From Oscillospiraceae bacterium (lineage in GTDB: Bacteria; Bacillota; Clostridia; Oscillospirales; Oscillospiraceae): DNA of 36,865 nucleotides. Where the stretch lies: assembly GCA_015068365.1 (NCBI GenBank), contig SVKR01000175.1:1-36865 (forward strand), given 5' to 3'. Of the stretch, positions 9,341 to 36,571 are shown one piece after another (within the stretch, counting starts at the first letter, position 1; the number at the start of each line of letters is the position of its first letter). Position numbers and translations under genes: made by a program. Under the pieces are notes generated by a model, which did no database searches, was not told the origin of the DNA, and worked only from the letters and a program-made list of their open reading frames with translations.

Positions 9341-9871
9341 TCATTCCGGCAGGATGTAGCCGTCCTCCCGGATCATCTGCTTGCACTCTTCAATGGCGGC
9401 GGCCCAGTCCGGCTTGATGTCGGCGGGCGGGTTGAACAGCTTGACGCGGTCAACGCAGAAATCGACCTCGTTGGAGATGTCGTTGTAGAAATACCAGCGG
9501 CGCTTGCGCTCCCGCAGGTGGTACACATCGTCCGGCGCATCGTCGATGGCCTTCCAGTTCACCTTGTAGGCATAGGCCGGGTCTTCCCGGATGCGCTCCA
9601 TGGCGGTGGTGATCTTCTCATCCCGGATGCTCATCAGCTTGTGCTGAAATGCCTTCCCGTTGACAAAGCGCGCGGTGCATTTGCTCTCGACCCGCTCGAT
9701 CTCCTCCGGGGTGTAGCTGTGCTTCAGAACCACGATGGGGACAAGCTCGCCGTGGTCCCATTCGTAACCGTTGCCCGGCTCGCAGAACAGGCGGTTATAG
9801 CAGTCCGCGCGGTTCTTGAACAGCTTCGGGAACTTGTCGTACATACGCTGGATTGTCATTTCAACGTTCAT
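9341..9871 (-). CDS. hypothetical protein, 176 residues
   Basis: Not recognised. A soluble, charged protein rich in aromatic residues, with MTIQRMYDKFPKLFKNRADCYNRLFCEPGNGYEWDHGELV near the N-terminus and a basic RERKRRWYFYNDISNEVDFCVDRVKLFN segment. No signal peptide or membrane span. ATG at 9871 has AAGGAG 7 bases upstream; the open frame continues upstream into the structured repeat (9891-10094) only by chance. The gene has its own promoter at 10110-10138, so its mRNA would carry a leader of about 230 bases that consists almost entirely of the multi-hairpin repeat. This placement suggests post-transcriptional control. Confidence 0.75.
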   Translation of the reverse strand: MNVEMTIQRMYDKFPKLFKNRADCYNRLFCEPGNGYEWDHGELVPIVVLKHSYTPEEIERVESKCTARFVNGKAFQHKLMSIRDEKITTAMERIREDPAYAYKVNWKAIDDAPDDVYHLRERKRRWYFYNDISNEVDFCVDRVKLFNPPADIKPDWAAAIEECKQMIREDGYILPE

Positions 9872-9890: not shown

Positions 9891-10094
9891 ATAATGATTA
9901 TCGGATGGCGAAAACAATCGTTACTTCGATTGTTTTCGCTGCCAAACGACACGTTTGGCAGCGAATGATTTGAAAAATCATTCGCCCGATGCTCATTGCA
10001 ATGAATACATGACAAAACAGCGTTGCTGTTTTGCTGCACCGCAAAGCGGTGCGGCGGAACGCTTTGCGGCGTTTCGCCATCATGTAATCATTAT
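9891..10094 (-). repeat. structured repeat element, copy A (204 bp)
   Basis: About 190 bp are shared with copy B at 13204-13392, nearly identical in sequence. Copy A has a 15-bp insertion near 10053-10070. It contains a run of perfect hairpins: 9908-9939 (13-bp stem), 9940-9960 (9-bp stem), 9961-9985 (10-bp stem), the palindrome CATTGCAATG at 9994-10003, 10014-10032 (8-bp stem) and 10036-10052 (7-bp stem). Its ends ATAATGATTA...TAATCATTAT are terminal inverted repeats extended by GATGGCGAAA. It forms the 5' leader of the gene at 9341-9871. It is either a MITE-like mobile element or a repeated leader RNA. Confidence 0.85.
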
Positions 10095-10109
10095 GACTGC
10101 GTTGCTTAC

Positions 10110-10138
10110 AGTATAGCACAGATTCCTTCGTTTGTCAT
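10110..10138 (-). promoter_or_regulatory. promoter reading into repeat copy A
   Basis: On the minus strand ATGACA (10138-10133) and an extended -10 TGCTATACT (TATACT 10115-10110) are 17 bases apart. Transcription would begin near 10103 and run through repeat copy A into the gene at 9871. Confidence 0.7.
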
Positions 10139-10171
10139 TATCGGCTTTCAAAACAGGCGCTGCCGCCGGGC

Positions 10172-12193
10172 TTATTTCACGTAAGAATAGCGCACCTCGG
10201 CGGTGACGGTGCCGCCGTAGGTCAGATGCTCGGAGGCGCGGCCGTCGTGGGAGTTGCCCTGCTGGGTGATGACGGGGTGCAGCTGGCCCATTGCCCCGCG
10301 CAGCTGCGCCTCCCGCACGGCCTGGGCCGCGGCGGCGGCGCGCGCGATCTCCGTGGCCTCCTCCAGATCCCGGTGCTTTTCGCTGCCGTCGGGGGTGTGC
10401 ACCATATAGGTCACGCCGCCCTCGTCCCACTGGGTCACGGTGACGCTGGCCCGGGCGATCAGCTCCGCCATCACGGAGCCGATGGCGTTGCCGATCTCGG
10501 CGTGTTCCGGCAGGATGCAGCGCGTCCCCAGCGCCTTCGCCACCTCCGGGAGGAACACATGCGCCGGGGCGCCCATGCCCAGAAGCACCATGTCGGTGCG
10601 AATGGGCGTGTCGATCAGCGCAAAGCCCTCCTGCCCCCGGCGGTTCCAGGCCTGCTCGGCCAGAAGCTCGACCTGCGGCTCCAGAGCGCTGTCAAAGGCC
10701 GCTCCGTAAGCCTTGGCCAGCAAAATGCGCACCAGATTTGTGTACAGCTTCCGGCCCACGGCGCTGTAGGCGGCCTCTGCCAGCGCCGCGACGTCCTCCG
10801 GGGCGTGGGGCAGGTTGCTGTTTTTCAGCTCGCACTCCGCCGCCAGAAGCGAGGCTTCCCGGTCAAATTCGGTGTAATCGCCCTTGATGTGCATGAAGTC
10901 CGTCGGCGTCAGGCCGCAGCGCATGACGACGCCCTCCTGCTCCAGCCGCTCGGTGTCCCGGATGTAAGAGCCAAGGCCCTTTTCTTCCTTCAGACGGAAG
11001 ACGGACAGCGGCCCGTCGCGCAGCGCGTCCACCAGCTTCAGCTCCTGGGCGCTGTAGCGGCCGCGGTCCGCCGGGTCTCTCATCAGAGCGTAAAACTCAT
11101 GGAAGCGGTAGCGCTCGGTGGAATAGCCGTTTTGCAGCACGTCCCGGAGCATGGGCACGATCTGCGGCCAGCGTGCCGCGGCGGAGCACAGCGGGATCGC
11201 CCGCCGGGGGTGGACCGTCAGCACGCCCTTTTCGATGCGGATGGTGCTGTCGCCGCCCAGGGCGAAGGTGTCGACGAACACGCCGTCCACCGAGGTGCGC
11301 CAGCCGCCCACGCGGATGCCCTGGGCCTCGTTCACGGTCTTGCCGCCGCAAACCATGGAGACGTCCGTGGTGGTGCCGCCCATGTCCACGACCATGTAGT
11401 TTTCCTCGTCGGTGAAGGCCTTGCCCGCCAGGATGCTGGCCGAGGGGCCGGAGAGAATGGTCTCCACGGGCTTGAGCATGGTGGCGTCGGTGCTCATCAG
11501 GCTGCCGTCGCTGCGCACGACCATGACCGGCGCGGTGCAGCCCCGGGCGCGGATGTCCGCCAGCGCCACGGCGATGAACTCGCGGATGACGGGCAGCAGC
11601 CTGGCGTTCAGCAGCGCGGTGGCGCCGCGCTGGATCACGTCGATGCGGTCGGTCAGCTCGTTGGCGCAGACGCAGGAAAGCCCGTGGCGGGCCAGCAGCT
11701 GTGCCTTGAAGGCCTTTTCGCAGGGCGCGCCGGTGTTGGCGCCGTAAAGCTCCGCCGCGGCCATGTAATCCGTCTCCGCGATCCAGGGGTCATAGTCCCG
11801 GAACAGCGCGTCCCAGTCCGGCTCGTCGATGAAGCTGCCGTCGGCGCTGCTGTGGGTGTCCACACAGCGGACGGCGCTGCGCTGAATGCCGTACTGCGCC
11901 TCAACGCCCAGCCGCTCCATCAGCTCGTCCGTCAGCCCGAAGATCACCAGCTTGGCGCGGGCGCCCTTGTTCTCCACGCAGGCGTTGGTCGCCAGCGTGG
12001 TGGAGAGGGAGACGAGCACCGCGTCGCGGATGTAGTCCTGGGGCAGCGTGTCCAGCGCCTTGGCGATCCCGATGGACAGGTCCTCGCGCGTCGTCAGGGT
12101 CTTGCCCTTCGCCAGCACGCGGTTTTCGCTGTAGTCGTATGCGACGGCGTCCGTACAGGTGCCGCCGGTGTCGATGCCGATCGCTATTTTCAT
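10172..12193 (-). CDS. HyuA-like hydantoinase/oxoprolinase-family protein
   Basis: A 673-residue member of the ATP-dependent hydantoinase/5-oxoprolinase A family (actin-like fold). IAIGIDTGGTCTD at residues 3-15 is the phosphate-binding loop of the N-terminal domain, and MVVDMGGTTTDVS is the second, internal loop typical of the HyuA core. The enzyme would use ATP to open a cyclic amide such as a hydantoin or 5-oxoproline. Most HyuA subunits pair with a HyuB subunit; none is next to it, and the protein carries an extra helical C-terminal half ending in a TYGGTVTAEVRY strand. ATG at 12193 has AGGAAAGG about 8 bases upstream. It follows the rhodanese lipoprotein gene by 17 bases and is probably co-transcribed with it. 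Confidence 0.85.
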   Translation of the reverse strand: MKIAIGIDTGGTCTDAVAYDYSENRVLAKGKTLTTREDLSIGIAKALDTLPQDYIRDAVLVSLSTTLATNACVENKGARAKLVIFGLTDELMERLGVEAQYGIQRSAVRCVDTHSSADGSFIDEPDWDALFRDYDPWIAETDYMAAAELYGANTGAPCEKAFKAQLLARHGLSCVCANELTDRIDVIQRGATALLNARLLPVIREFIAVALADIRARGCTAPVMVVRSDGSLMSTDATMLKPVETILSGPSASILAGKAFTDEENYMVVDMGGTTTDVSMVCGGKTVNEAQGIRVGGWRTSVDGVFVDTFALGGDSTIRIEKGVLTVHPRRAIPLCSAAARWPQIVPMLRDVLQNGYSTERYRFHEFYALMRDPADRGRYSAQELKLVDALRDGPLSVFRLKEEKGLGSYIRDTERLEQEGVVMRCGLTPTDFMHIKGDYTEFDREASLLAAECELKNSNLPHAPEDVAALAEAAYSAVGRKLYTNLVRILLAKAYGAAFDSALEPQVELLAEQAWNRRGQEGFALIDTPIRTDMVLLGMGAPAHVFLPEVAKALGTRCILPEHAEIGNAIGSVMAELIARASVTVTQWDEGGVTYMVHTPDGSEKHRDLEEATEIARAAAAAQAVREAQLRGAMGQLHPVITQQGNSHDGRASEHLTYGGTVTAEVRYSYVK

Positions 12194-12210
12194 CGCAGGG
12201 TCCTTTCCTT

Positions 12211-12945
12211 TTATGGCGCGCTGCGCGCCTCGTCGGATTCCATCGCCACGTTCAGCGCCTCGTCGACGACGGCGGTATAGTACAGGTCTTCCTCCTCCAT
12301 GATGGGGGAGCGGCTGTGCACGCACACGGCGGTGGTGCCGGGCTTCAGCCCGGTGAAGGTGAGGATGACATCATAGGGCGAGCCGTCCTCCGGCTCGTCC
12401 CGGCGGGTGCCGTAGTCCCGCTCCATGGTGCAGGAGAGCAGGGCAGGGTCCGCGATCTCCACGGAGTATTCCGGCCCGCCGCCGTCAAAGGAGGACAGGC
12501 GCAGCACGGCGTTTTGCGGCGCTTCCGGCGCCGGCCCCGTCACGATTTCGCCCGTCCAGTCGATGATCCCGCCGAACTCATAGACCCGGGTGTAGCCCAT
12601 GCCGGCCAGCTTCTCCGCCGCCTGCTTGCTGCGGTTTCCGCTGCGGCAGTATATGAGCAGGATCTGGTCATAGTCCGGCAGAGCCTCCGGCGCGTCGCAG
12701 CCGATGAGCTCATTCGGGACCAGTATGGCGCCGGGGATGTGGCCGGCGTCATATTCCTCCTGCCGGCGCACGTCCACGACGACGTGGCCGTCCTCGCGGG
12801 CCATCATCTCCTTCGCGGTCTCCTGGTCGATCTGGGTGTAGCCTTGCTTCGGCATGTCATCACCTTCCTTGCCTGAATGCGCGGAATCAGAGCCGCAGCC
12901 TGCGAACAGCAGGACAAAAATCAAAAGAAACAGCGCTTTTTTCAT
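12211..12945 (-). CDS. rhodanese-domain lipoprotein
   Basis: A 244-residue lipoprotein: the lipobox LFAGC gives lipidated Cys17, anchoring it outside the membrane. Residues about 36-135 are a rhodanese domain (VVVDVRRQEEYDAGHIPGAI; active-site loop CRSGNRS with Cys100; GYTRVYEFGGIIDW), a sulfur-transfer or thiol-redox module. Residues about 140-244 form an unrecognised beta-rich domain (YSVEIADPALLSC...YDVILTFTGLKPGTTAV). The ATG overlaps the TGA of the DUF1653 gene (ATGA), so the two are translationally coupled; the hydantoinase-like gene follows. The fused C-terminal domain is seen in secreted Clostridia rhodaneses in my general knowledge only loosely. Confidence 0.88.
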   Translation of the reverse strand: MKKALFLLIFVLLFAGCGSDSAHSGKEGDDMPKQGYTQIDQETAKEMMAREDGHVVVDVRRQEEYDAGHIPGAILVPNELIGCDAPEALPDYDQILLIYCRSGNRSKQAAEKLAGMGYTRVYEFGGIIDWTGEIVTGPAPEAPQNAVLRLSSFDGGGPEYSVEIADPALLSCTMERDYGTRRDEPEDGSPYDVILTFTGLKPGTTAVCVHSRSPIMEEEDLYYTAVVDEALNVAMESDEARSAP

Positions 12946-13169
12946 AGCTTTTCAAACCTCTGAAACGTTGTTCCGTCCCGCGTGACGGTCTCCAGCCACA
13001 TGTCCGCCGGGCGTACCCACATGCCGCCGTCGCCGTAAAGGGCGCGGTACACGACCATGGCTTCCTCGGTCTCGGAGTGGCGGGCGAGCGCGAGCACTTC
13101 ATATTCCCTGCCCTTGAAATGGCGATAGCGGCCGGGCGCGATCTGGGCCGATGCTTCCTCATAGGTCAT
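12942..13169 (-). CDS. DUF1653 family protein
   Basis: A 75-residue protein with the DUF1653 pattern: PGRYRHFKGREYEVLALARHSETEEAMVVYRALYGDGGMWVRPADMWLETV. Members are small, cytosolic and of unknown function; the fold is a beta-barrel-like module. AAAGGCGGTG lies about 9 bases upstream of the ATG. It is the first gene behind the promoter at 13388-13416 and repeat copy B, and it overlaps the rhodanese lipoprotein gene by 4 bases. Confidence 0.9.
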   Translation of the reverse strand: MTYEEASAQIAPGRYRHFKGREYEVLALARHSETEEAMVVYRALYGDGGMWVRPADMWLETVTRDGTTFQRFEKL

Positions 13170-13203
13170 GGCTTTTCACCGCCTTTGCTTCATTAGAATC
13201 ATT

Positions 13204-13392
13204 ATAATGATGATCGGATGGCGAAAACAATCGTTACTTCGATTGTTTTCGCTGCCAAACGACACGTTTGGCAGCGAATGATTTGAAAAATCATTCGCCC
13301 GATGCTCATTGCAATGAATACATGGAAAAACAGCGTTGCTGTTTTGCTGCACCGCAAAGCGGTGCGGCGTTTCGCCATCATGTAATCATTAT
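13204..13392 (-). repeat. structured repeat element, copy B (189 bp)
   Basis: Second copy of the element at 9891-10094, in the same orientation, with the same chain of hairpins and the same terminal inverted ends (ATAATGAT...TAATCATTAT). It lacks the 15-bp insertion of copy A and differs at a few single bases (for example CATGG instead of CATGAC). Read on the minus strand it starts within the -10 box of the promoter at 13388-13416 and ends 34 bases before the DUF1653 start, so it is the 5' leader of the DUF1653-rhodanese-hydantoinase unit. Confidence 0.85.
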
Positions 13393-13416
13393 AACGGCGC
13401 GCTGCGCAGATTTCAA
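13388..13416 (-). promoter_or_regulatory. promoter of the DUF1653-rhodanese-hydantoinase unit
   Basis: On the minus strand TTGAAA (13416-13411, overlapping the mnmM stop codon) and consensus TATAAT (13393-13388) are 17 bases apart. The TATAAT is made partly from the end of repeat copy B. Confidence 0.8.
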
Positions 13417-13988
13417 CCTGCCGCGCCGCCGGATGCCTCCCGCCACAGAAAGACCGCGATGGGCGGGTTGCCGGGGCGGTTGCGCCAGTCACAGCAAAGG
13501 ACGCTGAAGCGCTGCGCGTCCACGCCCCGGAGATAGTCCAGCAGCGCGTCGCGCTCCTCAAAGCCGTTCGCCCCGCCGTAATAAAGCGCCAGCGCCATCA
13601 CGCCGCCGGGCTTGAGCAGCCTGAGCCCGGCGTCCACCGCGGCGACGGAGGTGTCCGCCCGGGTCATGATCTGCGCATCGCCGCCGGGCAGCCGCCCGAA
13701 GTTGAACACGATGCAGTCCACGCTGCCCGCTGCGGCGTAGGTTTCCATGTGTACGTGGCTGTCCAGATGCAGCTCGGCGTGCAATCCCTCGGCGGTGAGC
13801 AGCGCCGCGGTCTGCTCCAGGGCAGCGGGCTGAATGTCAAAGGCCAGTACGCGGCCGTCCGGCCCGGAAAGGCGGCAGAGCAGCGCCGTGTCCCGCCCGC
13901 GGCCGGCGGTGGCGTCGATGCACAGCGCCCCGGGGCGCACATGCTGACGCAAAAAATCGTGCACCATGGCAAGGGTGTTTCGTTCCAT
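13413..13988 (-). CDS. mnmM: YtqB/MnmM-family SAM-dependent RNA methyltransferase
   Basis: A 191-residue class I methyltransferase. DATAGRGRDT (residues 25-34) is the SAM-binding motif I in the form typical of YtqB, followed by VLAFDIQPAAL (motif II acid) and VDCIVFNFGRLPGGDAQIMTRADTSVAAVDAGLRLLKPGGVMALALYYGG, the family-specific NxGxLPGGD-type stretch. B. subtilis YtqB was shown to be MnmM, which methylates 5-aminomethyl-2-thiouridine at tRNA position 34; that function is inferred by family. ATG at 13988 follows GGGAG by about 10 bases; the frame upstream of it contains no supporting features. It is followed at once by the promoter and repeat copy B of the next unit. Confidence 0.85.
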   Translation of the reverse strand: MERNTLAMVHDFLRQHVRPGALCIDATAGRGRDTALLCRLSGPDGRVLAFDIQPAALEQTAALLTAEGLHAELHLDSHVHMETYAAAGSVDCIVFNFGRLPGGDAQIMTRADTSVAAVDAGLRLLKPGGVMALALYYGGANGFEERDALLDYLRGVDAQRFSVLCCDWRNRPGNPPIAVFLWREASGGAAG

Positions 13989-20675: not shown

Positions 20676-22472
20676 TCAGATCGTGATGATCAGATTGTTG
20701 GTGTTCATGGTGTTGGTATAGGCGACATCCTTCGCCACGCGCATGATCATGCGGATGCCGATGTTGCGCTCCGGATGCTCCGGGTCGGGCTGCCAGCTGG
20801 CTGCCTTCTCCCGCAGGTCAAACTTGCTGCAGTCGTCCCGCAGGCGCAGGACCACGGTGCCGTCCTTCACCAGCACGCGCACGTCCAGATGGTGGGGCTT
20901 TCCGTCAGCAAAGCCGTGCTCGATGACGTTGCCCGCCATCTCCTCGATGCACAGCGCCAGCCGGTTCGCGGTCTTCACGGCGATGCCGCGCTCGGCGCAG
21001 AAGGGGACGACCTCGCCGGACAGGGCGACCACCTCGTCCACGCTGTGGAGCGAGCGCTCGATGCAGTCGTGCGCGGGGATGCCGAAGTCTTTCGGCAGCA
21101 GCATGTGCGATTCCAGCCCCGTCCGCCCGCTGTCCCTGGACAAGAGCATCCGCAGCACGAGGAACAGGCTCAGCACGGCCTGGCCCGCCGCATAGGCGAT
21201 CCAGACGCCGGCGGCGCCCAGGAAGGAGCTGAGCAGATAGGCCGCCAGCGCGGTAAACACGACCTCGATGTCAATGTTCACGATGTTGGCATCCAGCGTT
21301 CTGGAGACCACCTGCAGATAGTTCGCCATCGTGACGTTGAAGGCCAGAAACGGCAGGCAGATGGCATAGCAGCGCACGAAGGCCAGCGCCATGGACTGCG
21401 CCTCGCCGCCGTCGGGGACGAAAAGCACGGCGATGTACCTTGCGCAGAGAAAGACCACCGCCGCCAGCGCGATCACGCCGATAAGAATATCCGTCAGCGC
21501 CGTTTTCATGACCGTGCGGAGCCCCTTGACGTCCTGCTCGCCGATCATCATGCCGCCCATGATGAGCACCGCGCCGCCGATGCCCCAGCCCAGCGCGCCG
21601 ACGATGAAGCTGGAGTTGATCATGGCGGAGAGCGCCGTCACGCCCGCGTCGCCCGCAAGGCGGAGCAGCAGCGTGTTCAGCAGAATGGGCAGAAGCCCGC
21701 GGCTGAGCATGCACATCGCCCGGGGCAGACCGTCCCGGAGCAGGGGGGAGAGGGTGCCCTTCTGGATGGCGCGGAAAGAGAAGTGAAAGAGGCTGCTCTT
21801 TTTCAGAAAATGGGACGCCACGATCAGAAACGCCACATAGTGACTGATGCTGCTGGCCAGCGCCATGCCGAACATCCCGCCCCGGAAGACAAAGACGTTC
21901 AGCAGATCGCCCGCCACGTCCGTGACGGCGCAGGCGATGCTGGCGATCTTCGGGCGGAGCGCGTCGCCGTCAAGCTGCAAGATCGGCGTCAAAATGACGT
22001 ACAGGATAAAGCCCGGCGCGCCGAGGAACAGGCCCCGCAGGTACGCCGCGGTCTGGGTGAATACCTCCTCCGTCGCGCCCTTCGCGCCGAAGAGCAGCGC
22101 GAACTGCCCCGGCATCCCGGCGCCGAAGGCGGCCAGAAGCACGGACAGCGCGACGCCCAGCGTCAGCGTCAGGGAAAAGACGCAGTTCAGCCCGTCCCGG
22201 TCGCCCCGGCCGATGGCCTTGGTGCTCAGGTTCGTGCAGCCGACCATCAAAATCCCGCTGATGATGGAGGCAACGCTGTAGTACGGCGAGCCCAGGCCGC
22301 TGACGGCAAGCGCCGTGGTGCCCAGGTATCTGCCGACCAGAATGCCGTCGATGATCGCCGTGACGCCGCCGGTCAGCTCCGCGATCACCATGGTGATCAT
22401 GGTCTTCTGGAAGAGCTTTCTGGTGATGACGCCGTCGGCATGGGGGCCTTGCGATGTGCGATTGAGTTTCAT
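20676..22472 (-). CDS. MATE-family transporter fused to a C-terminal HATPase (anti-sigma-kinase-like) domain
   Basis: A 598-residue fusion. Residues about 15-450 are a 12-helix MATE/MVF-type transporter (GGVTAIIDGILVGRYLGTTALAVSGLGSPYYS near the start). Residues about 465-598 are a GHKL ATPase of the RsbW/SpoIIAB group: N-box EEMAGNVIEHGF near 514, a degenerate G1 box RLRDDCSKF and G2 box NIGIRMIMRVA near 573. This joins an efflux-type membrane domain to a domain that normally binds ATP and phosphorylates or sequesters protein partners. ATG at 22472 overlaps the stop of the HD gene (ATGA), so expression is coupled. It is gene two of the operon. Confidence 0.9.
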   Translation of the reverse strand: MKLNRTSQGPHADGVITRKLFQKTMITMVIAELTGGVTAIIDGILVGRYLGTTALAVSGLGSPYYSVASIISGILMVGCTNLSTKAIGRGDRDGLNCVFSLTLTLGVALSVLLAAFGAGMPGQFALLFGAKGATEEVFTQTAAYLRGLFLGAPGFILYVILTPILQLDGDALRPKIASIACAVTDVAGDLLNVFVFRGGMFGMALASSISHYVAFLIVASHFLKKSSLFHFSFRAIQKGTLSPLLRDGLPRAMCMLSRGLLPILLNTLLLRLAGDAGVTALSAMINSSFIVGALGWGIGGAVLIMGGMMIGEQDVKGLRTVMKTALTDILIGVIALAAVVFLCARYIAVLFVPDGGEAQSMALAFVRCYAICLPFLAFNVTMANYLQVVSRTLDANIVNIDIEVVFTALAAYLLSSFLGAAGVWIAYAAGQAVLSLFLVLRMLLSRDSGRTGLESHMLLPKDFGIPAHDCIERSLHSVDEVVALSGEVVPFCAERGIAVKTANRLALCIEEMAGNVIEHGFADGKPHHLDVRVLVKDGTVVLRLRDDCSKFDLREKAASWQPDPEHPERNIGIRMIMRVAKDVAYTNTMNTNNLIITI

Positions 22473-23332
22473 AGTGTCTTGATCTCCACTTGTTCCTGCG
22501 TGATCCGGAGATCGGAGCACGCCTCCGCCGCACGGCGGCATTCGTCCAGTGTCTGCTGTATTTTTTTGCGCAATTCTTCGATCAGCGGGACAAATTCCGG
22601 TGCTTTCGGCCTGACGTAGAGGAGAATGCGCTCCGGCGTCACCTCCACGCGGCGGATCGATTCGTGCGTCCCGAAGGCTTCAATGCCGCGCTGCGTTGTC
22701 ACGGCGGAGCTGTCGAACAGCAGCTCCGGGTTCCGGTCCGTCCCGACGTCGATCTCGTCGGCCAGGCGGATGATCGCCGCGAGAAAGGCCGTGCGGATGA
22801 CGCCGTAGGGCGTGTGCAGCTCCGGGTATTCCGCGCTGTCGAGCAGATCTGTTTTCCTGTGGCCGCGGGAGGTCTGGATGACGGCAAAGAGAATGTCCCC
22901 CGCCGGGATCTCCAGCAGCTCGGCATACTTGCGGATGAACAGGCCGCTGTATTCGTTGTGAAAATCGCGGATCGTCTGCGCAGTGTCCGCCTTGTCATGG
23001 GTCTCAAAATAGTCGCCGAAGTCGATGGAGCGCGAGAACACCTCATAGTCCTTCTGGCTGATCCCCATCCCGATGTCGTGCAGGTAGCAGGCCATGATCA
23101 GCACGAAGCATTCGCCGGTGCTGAGGCGGCACATCTGCTCCTGCCCCAGGATGCGGTTGGCGTAATCCAGCACATCCATGCTGTGCAGAAGGGAGTGGTC
23201 CGTGAAATCGGGGAAGCGCGGGAGGAACGATTCCAGAATCCCCTGGAGCATGAAAACGCTGTCCCGCACGCGCTGATGAAGCTCCGGCGCTTCATCCTTC
23301 AGTTTTCGTTCAAGAAAAAAATCCGTATCCAT
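22469..23332 (-). CDS. HD-domain metal-dependent phosphohydrolase
   Basis: A 287-residue cytosolic protein with an HD domain: His46 and His50 in TDHSLLHSMDVL, the His85-Asp86 pair in YLHDIGMG, and a late acidic motif LADEIDVGTDRNP. This is the arrangement of metal-binding HD hydrolases acting on nucleotides or signalling molecules; a C-terminal helical and beta region (about 215-287) is of unknown role. ATG at 23332 is preferred over the TTG just before it; AAAGGAA is 10 bases upstream. It is the first gene of a four-gene operon (HD, MATE-HATPase, AlkZ-related, esterase) behind the promoter at 23372-23400. Confidence 0.85.
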   Translation of the reverse strand: MDTDFFLERKLKDEAPELHQRVRDSVFMLQGILESFLPRFPDFTDHSLLHSMDVLDYANRILGQEQMCRLSTGECFVLIMACYLHDIGMGISQKDYEVFSRSIDFGDYFETHDKADTAQTIRDFHNEYSGLFIRKYAELLEIPAGDILFAVIQTSRGHRKTDLLDSAEYPELHTPYGVIRTAFLAAIIRLADEIDVGTDRNPELLFDSSAVTTQRGIEAFGTHESIRRVEVTPERILLYVRPKAPEFVPLIEELRKKIQQTLDECRRAAEACSDLRITQEQVEIKTL

Positions 23333-30150: not shown

Positions 30151-30993
30151 TCAAAAAAGACTAAGCTGCTCGTGTTCAGGCGGCATGGGAAGAGGAAATA
30201 CGCCAATCACAATAAAGGGATTCTTTGAAATATAATGGTTGCTTAGCGTGGTGCCAAGGAAAAAATACGTATCCCGTTTAGTATATTCGTCATAGAATTT
30301 ATGTTTTACTTTTTCAATGGCTGTTTTTTCATCATTTCTTTTTAAGCAATTCAAATAGAGCATTCCAATTTCCCAGTCCTCTATCGTTGCTCTAGACCGC
30401 TTTCCTTCATCATCTTCAAATACATAGTAAAAGGTGTATGGAATCTTTTGAACAACGCGGAATTCCTCTTCCCTTTCCTGTTCTGTTTGAAAAAGGTTCA
30501 TTTGCCGTGCTTGGGCTGCAAGGCTTTCCAGCTTGTTCGAATCCCAATTCGGATCACATCGTTCACAGTCGACACTGATGATTTTTGCCGGCTTGAAAAT
30601 GGCCAAAGACATTGGCGATTCTTTGCTTTTTGCTTTATCAATAATTGTTTGCAGATTCGTGTAGACTTCGCTGTTTCCTAAAACGATTCTACGTCTTTCG
30701 TTCCAGTCAACATGGCCAGATTTTTTATACACATGATGGACCTCAATGCTCTCTAGCTGTGGACGATATGACTCTATGCGAAAATCACTTGTGTTTTTTT
30801 CGACTTCCACTTCTATCCATGAGTACTTGGGATACTTTTGTTCATCATTGAGCAGACGATATGGCATTGGATAAAGACGTATCCAAGATCCATCTTCCAT
30901 AATACCTGCCGTACAAACAAGTTCAGCGTATTTTCTTGAAATGGTAGGGTATGTCTTGACAGTAATATAGACTTTTACCTTGCCACTTATCAT
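30151..30993 (-). CDS. hypothetical partner of the DUF488 protein, 280 residues
   Basis: Not recognised by function. A soluble beta-rich N-terminal half (KVYITVKTYPTISRKYAELVCTAGIMEDGSWIRLYPMPYRLL) reads like a small nucleic-acid- or RNA-binding barrel, a central CxxC (VDCERCDPNW) could hold metal, and the end (YFFLGTTLSNHYISKNPFIVIGVFPLP) is conserved-looking. It overlaps the DUF488 gene by 4 bases (ATGA) and is the second gene of that unit, so the two products very probably act together. Located on the island near CRISPR-Cas, hence possibly defence or DNA/RNA-processing related. Confidence 0.8.
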   Translation of the reverse strand: MISGKVKVYITVKTYPTISRKYAELVCTAGIMEDGSWIRLYPMPYRLLNDEQKYPKYSWIEVEVEKNTSDFRIESYRPQLESIEVHHVYKKSGHVDWNERRRIVLGNSEVYTNLQTIIDKAKSKESPMSLAIFKPAKIISVDCERCDPNWDSNKLESLAAQARQMNLFQTEQEREEEFRVVQKIPYTFYYVFEDDEGKRSRATIEDWEIGMLYLNCLKRNDEKTAIEKVKHKFYDEYTKRDTYFFLGTTLSNHYISKNPFIVIGVFPLPMPPEHEQLSLF

Positions 30994-31883
30994 AAATCAG
31001 CACTCCTAATAGTATACTTTGAACACATATAATCACGAATAACATGGCGGTGGCACATTTGAGGGTCTTTTTCAAAACACATTAGTGCTACTCTGCTTTC
31101 TGCTTTTATAATACGATATAGCTTATCTAACTCTTTCGTCAGTTTAGGCAATGTCTTTTCGTAATCGGAAAAAAGACTAGTATAGTCTTCTATTCCACTC
31201 AGATTCTTTCGCTTTTCCGATTCAATGCCCAATGCTGAGATAGAAATATATTTAATTGGGATACCCTTCATTCCCTGCATTACTTGTTCTAATTTCTCCC
31301 GGGAAAATCCAAACTTACGGCTATAAGTGTTCTTTCGAACATCGCATAATACTCGAACATCGTTTTCAATCAATGTATTAACAAACGCTTCCAGACTACG
31401 TCCTTCGTATCCTATCGTGAATAGCACCTCATCGTCTTGTTTATAACGCTCGCGTTCATCCAGCAATTTCTGTAGTTCTTTTTGTTTATTTCCAAATAAT
31501 CTGTTGAGAATCTCGCTATTGATTGTATAGTACGGATATGCACTATACGTTCTTCTCATAAGTGCATCTCCACGTTCCTTTGGAATGGAATAATCAGTTT
31601 CTATTTCTCCATCCAAATCTAAATCGCGGGATAGCGTGATTCTGTGTGTGACATCAGATAAAAAGCCATTCTTTCGGAGAACAGCGACATCTTCTGCTAA
31701 TTGAAAAGAATACGGTCCATAATGATAAGGCACGAACTCATAATCAGTCCGCTTATACTGCATCATGAACAAGAACATAAGCTTTTGAAAATCCGTTGCC
31801 GATGCTGGCTCGTCAAGCTTGTCCGCGATGGCAAGCAAAAGACGCTGGCGCTTATATGTTGGCAGATCTTTGTTCGTGCTCAT
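30990..31883 (-). CDS. DUF488 domain protein with N-terminal Panacea/SocA-like domain
   Basis: A 297-residue two-domain protein. The C-terminal half has the DUF488 features: FTIGYEGRSLEAFVNTL, VLCDVRKNTYSRKFGFS, YISISALGIE, and RVALMCFEKDPQMCHRHVI with the conserved Cys/His end (C..H). The N-terminal half (LLAIADKLDEPASATDFQKLMFLFMMQY...FVPYHYGPYSFQLAEDVAVLRKNGFLSD) resembles Panacea/SocA-type domains, which occur in antitoxins and phage-defence loci. DUF488 is thought to act on nucleic acids or nucleotides but no reaction is established to my knowledge. ATG at 31883 has GGAGGAAG upstream. Promoter at 31940-31968; translationally coupled to the next gene. Confidence 0.82.
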   Translation of the reverse strand: MSTNKDLPTYKRQRLLLAIADKLDEPASATDFQKLMFLFMMQYKRTDYEFVPYHYGPYSFQLAEDVAVLRKNGFLSDVTHRITLSRDLDLDGEIETDYSIPKERGDALMRRTYSAYPYYTINSEILNRLFGNKQKELQKLLDERERYKQDDEVLFTIGYEGRSLEAFVNTLIENDVRVLCDVRKNTYSRKFGFSREKLEQVMQGMKGIPIKYISISALGIESEKRKNLSGIEDYTSLFSDYEKTLPKLTKELDKLYRIIKAESRVALMCFEKDPQMCHRHVIRDYMCSKYTIRSADL

Positions 31884-31939
31884 TGTTCTTCCTCCAACAA
31901 AATAAGTCGTTTGTTCATCATGCTGTGTTTTAATAATAT

Positions 31940-31968
31940 ATTTTACACTATTATCAAGCCGTTTGCAA
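31940..31968 (-). promoter_or_regulatory. promoter of the DUF488 unit
   Basis: On the minus strand TTGCAA (31968-31963) and TAAAAT (31945-31940), spacer 17 bases. Confidence 0.7.
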
Positions 31969-32021
31969 TCATTATTCATTCTAGAAGTGAAGGTAAAATG
32001 AAAAATGTAATCTTCCAATAA

Positions 32022-33965: not shown

Positions 33966-34018
33966 AATACCAAACAAAAAGCCTCGAAAAATTATCTGTG
34001 ATAGATGGAGCCAATGCA

Positions 34019-36571
34019 ATGGAACTAAACAGATTCTGGGCAAAAACAGAACCTTTCCAATCTGTTCTGACGCATGCATTTGTCAGTGGCAGCGTTGCTC
34101 AATACTTGTTGCGTGATTTGCTTTCAGAAGGTGACAGAAGACAACTGCGTGCCAACCTTGGATTGAGCGCGGATTCATTGTCCGGTTTTGTAGGATACCT
34201 TGTCTCTCTGCACGATATAGGCAAGCTGGAATACAGTTTTCAATGTCAAGATGCGTTCTACAGAGATATGATTGCGGGAAATAGCAACCTCCAGGGGCTC
34301 TTTATCGCAGGTGTCCGACATGAAAAAACCAGTCAATCCTGTATGAGTGCACTGTGGAAGCAGCAAGGAGAAAACAGAGCATCGTCTGCGCTGCTGTCAA
34401 AGATTATCGGTGCACATCACCAAGGAAAGACCGGAAACGGGAATTTCAAGAGATCGTCCGGTTGGTTTGAACTACAAAGTGAGCTGGAAGGAACAATGCG
34501 GCGTCATTTCCTCGGTGCAGAAGGCGTTATGCTTCCCGAAATAGAGAGATTGCATCAAGGTCCTGCGGCTGTATTGCTGCTTGGTCTCATGATTCTGGCA
34601 GACTGGATATCATCCGGAAGCATGTTTTCCGACGCGGAAGCGTGGATTGGATGCCCAAATCAGGATATACATATCGAAGAAGCAACCAAAGAGTTTCTGA
34701 ACAGGAGCGGATTGAACCCGCAAAAAATAATTTGGCCTCCGGCATTTTCCGATGTATGGCCAAACATCCCATATGACGGTCAGCGCCCGCTGCAGAGAAC
34801 TGTGGAAACTGTCTTGCATGAAATGGAACTGCCAGCACAGTTGGTCTTGATTGAAGCTCCGATGGGAGAGGGCAAAACCGAGGCTGGCGTTTACGCTGCG
34901 CTGCATATGGCAATGCAATGGGGAAAAGACGGACTCTATGTCGCTTTGCCGACGGCAGCCACATCCAATCAGATGGTTGGAAGAATACGGGCATTGCTAG
35001 ATCTTCATGGTTTGTCCGATTCCGTTCGGCTCCTTCATTCCATGGCCTGGCTGGAGAAAGCGGAAGAATACCGCCCGAACTCCCCGGATGAACATGATGA
35101 GATCGCCTCCTGGCTTGCTCCGGTCAAACGAGGCTTGCTCGGTCAATATGCAGTCGGAACAGTCGATCAGGCCATGCTTGCAGCGACCAATGTGAAATAC
35201 GGCGTACTCCGACTGCTCGGACTGTCCAACAAAGCATTAATCATCGATGAGATCCACTCCTATGATGCATATATGTCGGAGATCATTGTTCGTCTTCTGG
35301 AATGGTGCAAAGCGTTGGAGATTCCGGTTGTAATGCTTTCCGCGACGCTTCCGCCGATGCTGAAGGAGAAGTTACTAAAACCGTACGCTTCCCATCGTTT
35401 TTCGGAAGCATATCCGCTGATCACGGCAATAGACCAGGACGGAAGAGTGATCGAACGAGAAATCGGACAAACGAGTCACCGGCTTAATGTCCAGGTCCAG
35501 CTTACCCCGTTGCTTGGTGACGCAGATCAGATCGCGGAACTCGCAGTAAACGAGGTCGCTGATGGAGGCTGCATCTGTGTTCTGATGAACACAGTTCGGG
35601 AAGTGCAGGCCGTATATTCGTCCATCAAAAAACGATATCATGGCGACTTGCTTCTGTTCCATGCACAGTTTCCGGCAGGACAGCGCGCCGAGCTTGAAAC
35701 AGAGTGTATTTCACGTTACGGGAAGGATAAAAGCCATCGTCCGAAGCAGTCTATACTGGTCGCCACGCAGGTCGTGGAGCAGTCTTTGGATGTGGATTTT
35801 GATTTCATGATCACAGCGATAGCACCGATCGATTTGCTGCTGCAAAGAATGGGCCGTGTATTCCGGCATGACGACAGCCCACGCCCAGCAAGCCATGTTC
35901 ACGCAGGTATGACGGTCCTGGTTCCGAAAGAGGGCTCCGGATTCGGATCCAGCGCCTATGTCTATCCCGAGTGCCTGTTGAACAGCGCGATTCGTCTATT
36001 GAAAGACCGAACACACATTCAGATACCTGAGGATATGGCCCAGCTGGTGCGTGAAGGGTACGATCCTTCCTTTGCCCCGGAAGAGGAGGCTCGGCAATGG
36101 CTTGAGAACCAGATCAAAGAGCAGGCTGAAGCCGGCGCAAGCCAGCAGTATCTCCTGAATCCTCCGGACAAGCTATACTCTGCGCTGAATGAAGAATTCC
36201 TTTACGAAGATGATGAGAACTCTTATCGCCTCTCTGCAAAAACTCGTTTGGGCGAGCCGACAGTTCGAATTGCGCTTCTTACTGAGGAAGAAATGGCGCA
36301 GCTTTATCCGTTTATTCAGACAAAGAACGGGAGACAGGTTGCAAATGTCTGGGATCGAAAGACAGCAGAACTGGTAATGAAGAGAAGCGTTTCCGTAAGA
36401 ATTCGAAGACTGGATGGGAATCTGTCCGGATTATCGGACATTCAAGGCGCTATGCTTCTATCGGGCTTGAAAATACTGCCGCTTAAAGATGGCGTGTATC
36501 GGACGGAAAAAGGAAGAATCATCCGTTTTGACACAGCGCTTGGATTGTTAATTGAAGAGGGTGTGTCATGA
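34019..36571 (+). CDS. cas3: CRISPR-associated helicase-nuclease Cas3 (type I-E)
   Basis: An 850-residue Cas3: an N-terminal HD nuclease domain (His19 in LTHAFVSG; His65-Asp66 in VSLHDIGKLEYSFQ; IIGAHHQGKTG), then a superfamily 2 helicase with Walker A APMGEGKTEA (about 281-290), DEIH at 410-413, SATLPPM near 441, QVVEQSLDVDFD and motif VI LLLQRMGRVFRH near 609. It is recruited by Cascade to unwind and degrade foreign DNA. ATG at 34019 is chosen because GGAG is 8 bases upstream; the GTG at 33998 has no RBS. The stop overlaps the start of the next gene by 4 bases. The neighbour cas8e fixes the subtype as I-E. Confidence 0.95.
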   Translation: MELNRFWAKTEPFQSVLTHAFVSGSVAQYLLRDLLSEGDRRQLRANLGLSADSLSGFVGYLVSLHDIGKLEYSFQCQDAFYRDMIAGNSNLQGLFIAGVRHEKTSQSCMSALWKQQGENRASSALLSKIIGAHHQGKTGNGNFKRSSGWFELQSELEGTMRRHFLGAEGVMLPEIERLHQGPAAVLLLGLMILADWISSGSMFSDAEAWIGCPNQDIHIEEATKEFLNRSGLNPQKIIWPPAFSDVWPNIPYDGQRPLQRTVETVLHEMELPAQLVLIEAPMGEGKTEAGVYAALHMAMQWGKDGLYVALPTAATSNQMVGRIRALLDLHGLSDSVRLLHSMAWLEKAEEYRPNSPDEHDEIASWLAPVKRGLLGQYAVGTVDQAMLAATNVKYGVLRLLGLSNKALIIDEIHSYDAYMSEIIVRLLEWCKALEIPVVMLSATLPPMLKEKLLKPYASHRFSEAYPLITAIDQDGRVIEREIGQTSHRLNVQVQLTPLLGDADQIAELAVNEVADGGCICVLMNTVREVQAVYSSIKKRYHGDLLLFHAQFPAGQRAELETECISRYGKDKSHRPKQSILVATQVVEQSLDVDFDFMITAIAPIDLLLQRMGRVFRHDDSPRPASHVHAGMTVLVPKEGSGFGSSAYVYPECLLNSAIRLLKDRTHIQIPEDMAQLVREGYDPSFAPEEEARQWLENQIKEQAEAGASQQYLLNPPDKLYSALNEEFLYEDDENSYRLSAKTRLGEPTVRIALLTEEEMAQLYPFIQTKNGRQVANVWDRKTAELVMKRSVSVRIRRLDGNLSGLSDIQGAMLLSGLKILPLKDGVYRTEKGRIIRFDTALGLLIEEGVS

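Follow-up and report, generated by a model that had tools for sequence, protein, structure and literature searches.

A probable promoter-invading, MITE-like repeat with a double-cloverleaf fold in Oscillospiraceae genomes

The Correia repeat enclosed elements (CREE, or NEMIS) of Neisseria are short and gene-less, have imperfect inverted ends, fall into discrete size classes and often lie 5' of genes. In the Snyder promoter of CREE, a native -35 works with a -10 that lies within the first six bases of the element; in the Black promoter, an element-borne -35 is completed by the flank; and RNase III can cleave copies that are transcribed (PMC2649163). Binding of IHF is a further Correia trait. 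An element with the same general properties occurs twice, as copies A and B, in the 36,865-nt contig SVKR01000175.1 of an Oscillospiraceae bacterium (assembly GCA_015068365.1), the whole of which is referred to here as the window. As in CREE, a native -35 is combined with an element-borne -10, the element could be transcribed as a leader, and an outward promoter of the Black type is possible at the right end (18 of 66 copies). On the other hand, CREE end in TATAG[CT]GGATTAA (PMC2649163), whereas the ends here are ATAATGATNATNNGATGGCGAAA, with no sequence relation. CREE target TA, while here T flanks the element in 36 of 46 copies and A in 32 of 46, and it is the terminal AT of the element that is nearly invariant. 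CREE mostly measure 104-108 or 153-157 bp, against ~98 or ~204 bp here; the present element also differs in its two covarying cloverleafs, in a target that is often a Pribnow box, as judged from empty orthologs, and in its unrelated host lineage. It is Correia-like in the way it works, yet it departs from Correia elements in sequence and target and is not a member of that family.

BOX elements are modular, with A, B and C parts. The pneumococcal BOX and RUP, like the present element, are interspersed, intergenic hairpin repeats of a Firmicute that are probably moved in trans (PMC3049150, PMC10969869); unlike BOX, the present element has a constant build, two cloverleafs in inverted arrangement, and targets promoters. 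REP and BIME sequences likewise place inverted pairs of hairpin units between genes, but REPs are 20-40 nt long and mostly carry a GTAG or CGTC tag (PMC3733652), whereas the ends here are untagged. A search of Rfam gave no match to the element at E <= 1, and the portion of the literature that was covered contained no description of this sequence or of such a double cloverleaf. The element is probably a non-autonomous, promoter-invading element resembling a miniature inverted-repeat transposable element (MITE), built as an inverted dimer of a ~98-nt cloverleaf unit. Mobility follows from its distribution and from empty sites, and the target bias, the conserved fold and the neutrality of orientation are likewise observed.

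Copies A and B (Table 1) have 171 nt in common at 97% identity, plus a second shared block; an earlier inspection of the window without database searches, here called the sequence-only reading, had placed these two near-identical multi-hairpin elements exactly, on the minus strand. Their predicted folding energies are -102.4 kcal/mol (copy A, z = -9.4) and -95.4 kcal/mol (copy B, z = -8.6), and none of 200 shuffles folds as well. The architecture consists of two tandem units joined by GC, each made of a closing stem and three hairpins around a four-way junction. Pair counts and covariation are based on an alignment of 41 distinct copies (A1), in which 97.5% of cells pair and 35 of 80 pairs have compensatory, both-sided changes; none of 500 shuffles reaches any of these measures, and slid versions pair in 32-47% of cells. 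The sequence-only reading had staked its structure on covariation, which is very strong for the chain of hairpins. It had also drawn attention to the matching terminal inverted ends. One large end-to-end hairpin was rejected, with no covariation above shuffles; each end instead forms the outer arm of its own closing stem. Unit 1 matches the layout of the reverse complement of unit 2 (ATAATGATNATNNGATGGCGAAA, three hairpins, ...TCATT), so that the whole resembles a dimer in inverted arrangement, and monomers of ~98 bp that share its ends occur at two loci (L117 and L136). In four other copies (L138, L131, L139 and L056) single hairpins, or most of one, are missing with their neighbours intact, as if lost unit-wise.

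Each copy in the window stands, as had been claimed, between a good promoter and a start codon, which follows after 19 nt (copy A) or 34 nt (copy B). Copy B is preceded by TTGAAA-17-TATAAT (13416-13388, 11 of 12 matches) and copy A by ATGACA-17-TATACT with a TG extension (10138-10110, 10 of 12 matches); these were the sole two matches of a simple promoter scan over 4 kb, where 0.5 would be expected. Copy A starts 15 nt past TATACT, close to the expected transcription start. The -10 of copy B is indeed built from the repeat end, as a host T followed by ATAAT of the element, and when its flanks are rejoined, T-AT-AAT again yields TTGAAA-17-TATAAT. No intrinsic terminator was found inside the element. 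Homologs of the gene behind copy B (DUF1653) exist.

Insertion into a -10 hexamer can be followed at the gene of an AAA+ ATPase (MPTTWNRSPEEFHKIYLANTDAFYRIG..., named by its Walker-type motifs), which carries the element in two metagenome-assembled genomes (MAGs) from the rumen, in opposite orientations. The junctions read TTGACCCGGGCGGGATTTGGATT-element-AATGAAAGG at one locus (L056) and TTGACCCGGGGCGGATTTGGATTATA-element-AGTATGG at the other (L057). Element-free orthologs read TTGACC...GGATTATAATAGTTCT (L146), ...GGGCTATAATAGAG (L147), ...GGTTTATAATACG (L150) and ...GGATTATAATAATGG (L151), and in all four the TATAAT of the native promoter, TTGACC-16-TATAAT, is intact. Rejoining the flanks of L057 with AT gives TATAATAGT, the same as in L146. 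L056 and L057 are thus independent insertions that split one native TATAAT at different AT steps. The net gain is ~202 bp for a full copy, and the terminal ATAAT of the element rebuilds the -10 at the native spacing. For copy A, an ortholog of the downstream gene in genome G001 (83% amino acid identity) has no element upstream; it was rejected as an exact empty site, its upstream region being too diverged for the site to be read.

The same arrangement recurs across the family. Of 51 upstream-side flanks, 31 reach a sigma-70 promoter score of ≥10, compared with 9% of shuffles; the side facing the gene end has little promoter signal. In 24 of these 31 strong flanks the -10 is T/ATAAT, that is, one host base and the first five bases of the element, with a native -35 at the right distance upstream (16-17 spacing), which bears out the suggestion that the element carries its own -10 box. 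Rejoining flanks with the shared AT gives, besides the copy B promoter, TTGACT-16-TATAAT, TTGACT-17-TATAAT, TTGCCT-17-TATAAT with TG, and promoters with the -10 variants TATACT, TATGAT and TACAAT. The mean score of rejoined sites is 7.64, compared with 4.07 in the opposite direction and 1.31 for other AT sites. At most of them the final three bases of the hexamer lie beyond the element and so are lost to that promoter, and permutation of the far flanks lowers the promoter score (z = 3.4) only when AT is restored. A score of ≥10 is reached by 16 of the 44 oriented copies and one of ≥8 by 24; our estimate from this is that roughly between one third and one half of them were inserted inside a -10 hexamer.

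The flanks also reveal a symmetric target preference, YT-AT-AR, which is not just the result of promoter selection, because it is equal on the upstream and downstream sides. YTATAR is about five times denser between genes (41 sites in 38.6 kb of intergenic sequence, 48 in 219 kb of genic sequence), and 42% of YTATAR sites upstream of genes score ≥10, compared with 54% of element sites of the same type. Given this density and these proportions, simple sequence preference combined with loss of harmful insertions is enough to explain the pattern, and recognition of opened promoters, although possible, is not needed. The sequence-only reading had set promoter-proximal placement against a MITE-like insertion; the element is MITE-like, and its preferred target resembles the Pribnow box. 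Element sites other than YTATAR score ≥10 in 29% of cases, against 9% for any AT, an excess that leaves room for more than simple sequence preference. A tentative proposal, which we regard as possible and somewhat unlikely, is that the integration machinery recognises the Pribnow box itself, by its sequence or as an opened promoter, and restores the promoter it invades, the two cloverleafs being kept as folded single-stranded DNA or cruciforms for this reaction and not as RNA.

The copies share sharp ends, ATAATGATTA...TAATCATTAT (also written ATAATGATTACATGATGGCGAAA...TTTTCGCCATCCGATAATCATTAT and ATAATGATNAT...GATGGCGAAA), which were fixed by comparing the flanks of all matches in the same MAG. 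In this MAG (2.25 Mb, 189 contigs) the element has no fewer than 16 left and 16 right ends, most of them at contig ends, which accounts for the many breaks in the assembly. Apart from C160, the same-genome copies are mostly 98-99% identical and represent a recent burst. Related copies (76-93% identity) were found in genomes G001, G006 and G049 and in two rumen MAGs (ONPF01000006.1 and CACXAQ010000019.1). The copy count in relatives that had been called for covered 401 genomes sampled from this taxonomic family and gave 14 carriers; 394 genomes sampled from the order added no other, and no carrier was seen beyond the family. Carriage by phage, plasmid or viral contigs was rejected, no element match being found in any of them. 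In a tree of the copies, those of one genome mostly group together, as expected if transposition occurred in lineage-specific bursts. Being short and non-coding, with inverted ends and many near-identical copies that share those ends, the element has the features of a MITE; with the empty orthologous sites, these data uphold the view of a repeated, mobile element. Two further observations concern other genomes. Genome G276 contains a related element type of ~220 bp with similar ends, ATAACTATGATCGGATGGCGAAA / ATAATGATCATCGGATGGAGAAA (C14:7867-8086 and C70:6640-6859), which the full-length search had missed. Two copies of one genome, L126 (G339:C7) and L130 (G339:C8), share both flanks (left ...gctacgcgct, right taaaaagyagccatttttcaaatgtctrctttttaaagaaaatcagtatga), the element seemingly being nested in a larger repeated sequence.

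Gene context was available on both sides for 64 copies; 22 are leaders in sense and 18 in antisense orientation, 20 lie in divergent gaps and 4 in convergent gaps. A gene start is adjacent in 60 of the 64, with the nearest start codon at a median of 38 nt. Convergent gaps account for 26% of the intergenic sequence at these loci, which makes 4 of 64 a deficit (p = 4e-5). The placement is therefore not random relative to genes, and the promoter-proximal position at the 5' end of differing genes, first seen in two copies, extends to the family. Their common sense orientation proved to be a chance pairing, since orientation to the gene is unbiased family-wide (22 vs 18, p = 0.64). In two genomes of different genera, an antisense element lies directly 5' of the Shine-Dalgarno sequence of an rpsT-like gene (start MANIK...; L108 in G401, 1501-1706, and L115 in G123, 1501-1703). 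These copies are not closest relatives and may reflect repeated insertion at a hot spot; a single old shared insertion was rejected, descent being unproven.

The preferred reading of a promoter-invading element can be set out as a sequence of steps. Some enzyme would mobilise the element into YT-AT-AR targets, adding ~202 bp, and such targets are common in the Pribnow boxes of these GC-rich genomes. The promoter would survive because the ends, ATAAT...ATTAT, re-form TATAAT with its spacing to the native -35 unchanged. Transcription would then start a few nucleotides inside the element, so that the whole element would become a ~190-nt, hairpin-rich 5' leader in either orientation; insertion just 3' of the -10, as for copy A, would have the same outcome. 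Where the far junction also reads AAT, the right end could supply a second, outward -35. Promoter activity and an effect on expression are both presumed, with RNase III processing or altered mRNA stability being most likely, as for Correia elements. The fold would be kept mainly for mobilisation and not for riboregulation; effects on mRNA stability or level are expected to be modest, with no dedicated riboswitch-like function. As a rule, a mobile element either disrupts promoters or brings in outward-facing ones; here a -10 hexamer is split and then restored. Low-damage spread through promoters is possible in this way, giving dozens of unrelated messages one structured leader. The element offers a clear case in which to ask how transposition can exploit promoter base composition, what consequences such leaders have for gene expression in gut bacteria that cannot be cultured, and what enzyme mobilises DNA containing two conserved four-way junctions while duplicating almost none of the target.

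The sequence-only reading had suggested, as one of two options, a leader RNA that controls translation. A dispersed riboregulator, selected as RNA for its effect on the translation or stability of the gene behind it, would account for the very strong covariation and for the leader position close to start codons, but sense and antisense copies are about equally common, the downstream genes are unrelated to one another, and the Shine-Dalgarno sequence, which is no part of the element, shows weak pairing at most in folded leaders. Selection at the RNA level on one strand should favour G-U pairs, and the data show no such preference: with 3124 of 3235 cells Watson-Crick, G-U does not exceed A-C either overall (30 vs 40) or in sense leaders (8 vs 12), although many copies may be too young to reveal it. 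Together with the element-free ortholog of the copy A gene and the absence of an Rfam match, these observations make a riboregulator highly improbable, and translation control is unsupported. The element is a leader by position; that it is a regulator by function is unproven. A portable promoter, selected mainly for transcription that leaves the right end (TTGTTT/TTGATT-18-TATAAT) towards the neighbouring gene, has a parallel in Correia elements (PMC2649163), and at 18 of 66 right ends the outward score does reach ≥10 when the flank supplies the rest of the -10. The left end lacks such a promoter (1 of 65), yet it faces gene starts almost as often, and the junction of copy A has no completed -10; this explanation is accordingly improbable.

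Closer to the preferred reading is an ordinary MITE that inserts at random, with survivors that spare genes and promoters and so mimic promoter targeting. Avoidance of convergent gaps and coding regions is what purifying selection would leave, and genic YTATAR sites exist yet are almost never hit. However, the junction falls at the -10 with native 16-17 spacing too frequently (24 of 31 strong cases, at one offset), and real -10 hexamers are split with their second half beyond the element, as the permutation and the empty sites indicate, which makes random insertion rather unlikely. Several points nevertheless weigh against promoter invasion. About half of the copies, copy A included, are not in a recognisable -10, and part of the promoter bias could stem from the selective loss of harmful insertions. 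Promoter scores depend on generic sigma-70 matrices of the authors' choice, genes were called by a home-made, codon-usage-based caller (which reproduced the known genes of the window), and the majority of genomes are fragmented MAGs. No transposase or autonomous partner was found; among the matches listed from 5 and 401 genomes there were no widely spaced end pairs and no larger same-ended element carrying a transposase, and MAGs lose insertion sequence elements. The lone end at C21:9482 was rejected as part of a larger element, being a remnant between ABC-transporter substrate-binding and histidine-kinase genes (named from open reading frame translations). Target duplication is at most 2 bp: AT fits the empty sites, and lengths of 0, 1 or 2 bp are indistinguishable because the target and the element ends both contain AT. 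A classic 2-9 bp duplication beside the ends was rejected, with no convincing excess over permuted pairs, as was an IS630/Tc1-like TA duplication, the outer T and A being only 70-80% conserved and the inner AT nearly invariant.

Table 1. Features at the two copies of the element in the window (P, closing stem; H, hairpin).
Feature	Position	Strand	Basis
Copy A, full 204-bp element, ATAATGATTACATGATGG...CCGATAATCATTAT	9891..10094	-	ends from compared flanks, ~27 same-genome matches and relatives
Copy B, 189-bp element, 15-nt deletion in hairpin 1	13204..13392	-	alignment and flanks
Copy A unit 1, P1 and H1-H3, four-way junction	10000..10092	-	pair counts, covariation
Copy A unit 2, P2 and H4-H6, four-way junction	9893..9997	-	pair counts, covariation
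Copy B unit 1, hairpin 1 mostly deleted	13313..13390	-	alignment A1
Copy B unit 2	13206..13310	-	alignment A1
Native -35 TTGAAA 5' of copy B	13411..13416	-	promoter scan
Copy B -10 TATAAT, host T and ATAAT of element end	13388..13393	-	arrangement common to many copies
AAT beyond copy B; host T (13393), AT and AAT rebuild the split native -10	13201..13203	-	
TTGTTT, possible outward -35, 18 nt to TATAAT 13206-13201 (gene-side junction)	13225..13230	-	weak, putative
-35 ATGACA 5' of copy A	10133..10138	-	promoter scan
-10 TATACT, extended (TG), 5' of copy A	10110..10115	-	promoter scan
Gene 3' of copy A, without Pfam match	9341..9871	-	
Gene 3' of copy B, DUF1653	12942..13169	-	
Gene 5' of copy A, hydantoinase/oxoprolinase	10172..12193	-	
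Gene 5' of copy B, rRNA-methylase-like	13413..13988	-	

Three other loci of the window deserve mention. A Cas3 nuclease-helicase gene with HD and helicase domains (33998-36571, plus strand) lies near the contig end and probably marks the beginning of a type I CRISPR-Cas operon that the assembly truncates. A gene for a DUF488 protein with a long N-terminal extension (30990-32018, minus strand) is directly followed by an unmatched gene of 280 amino acids (30151-30993), and the two are possibly a defence-type pair. Finally, a MATE-type transporter is fused in one frame to a histidine-kinase-like ATPase domain, HATPase_c_2 (20676-22541, minus strand).

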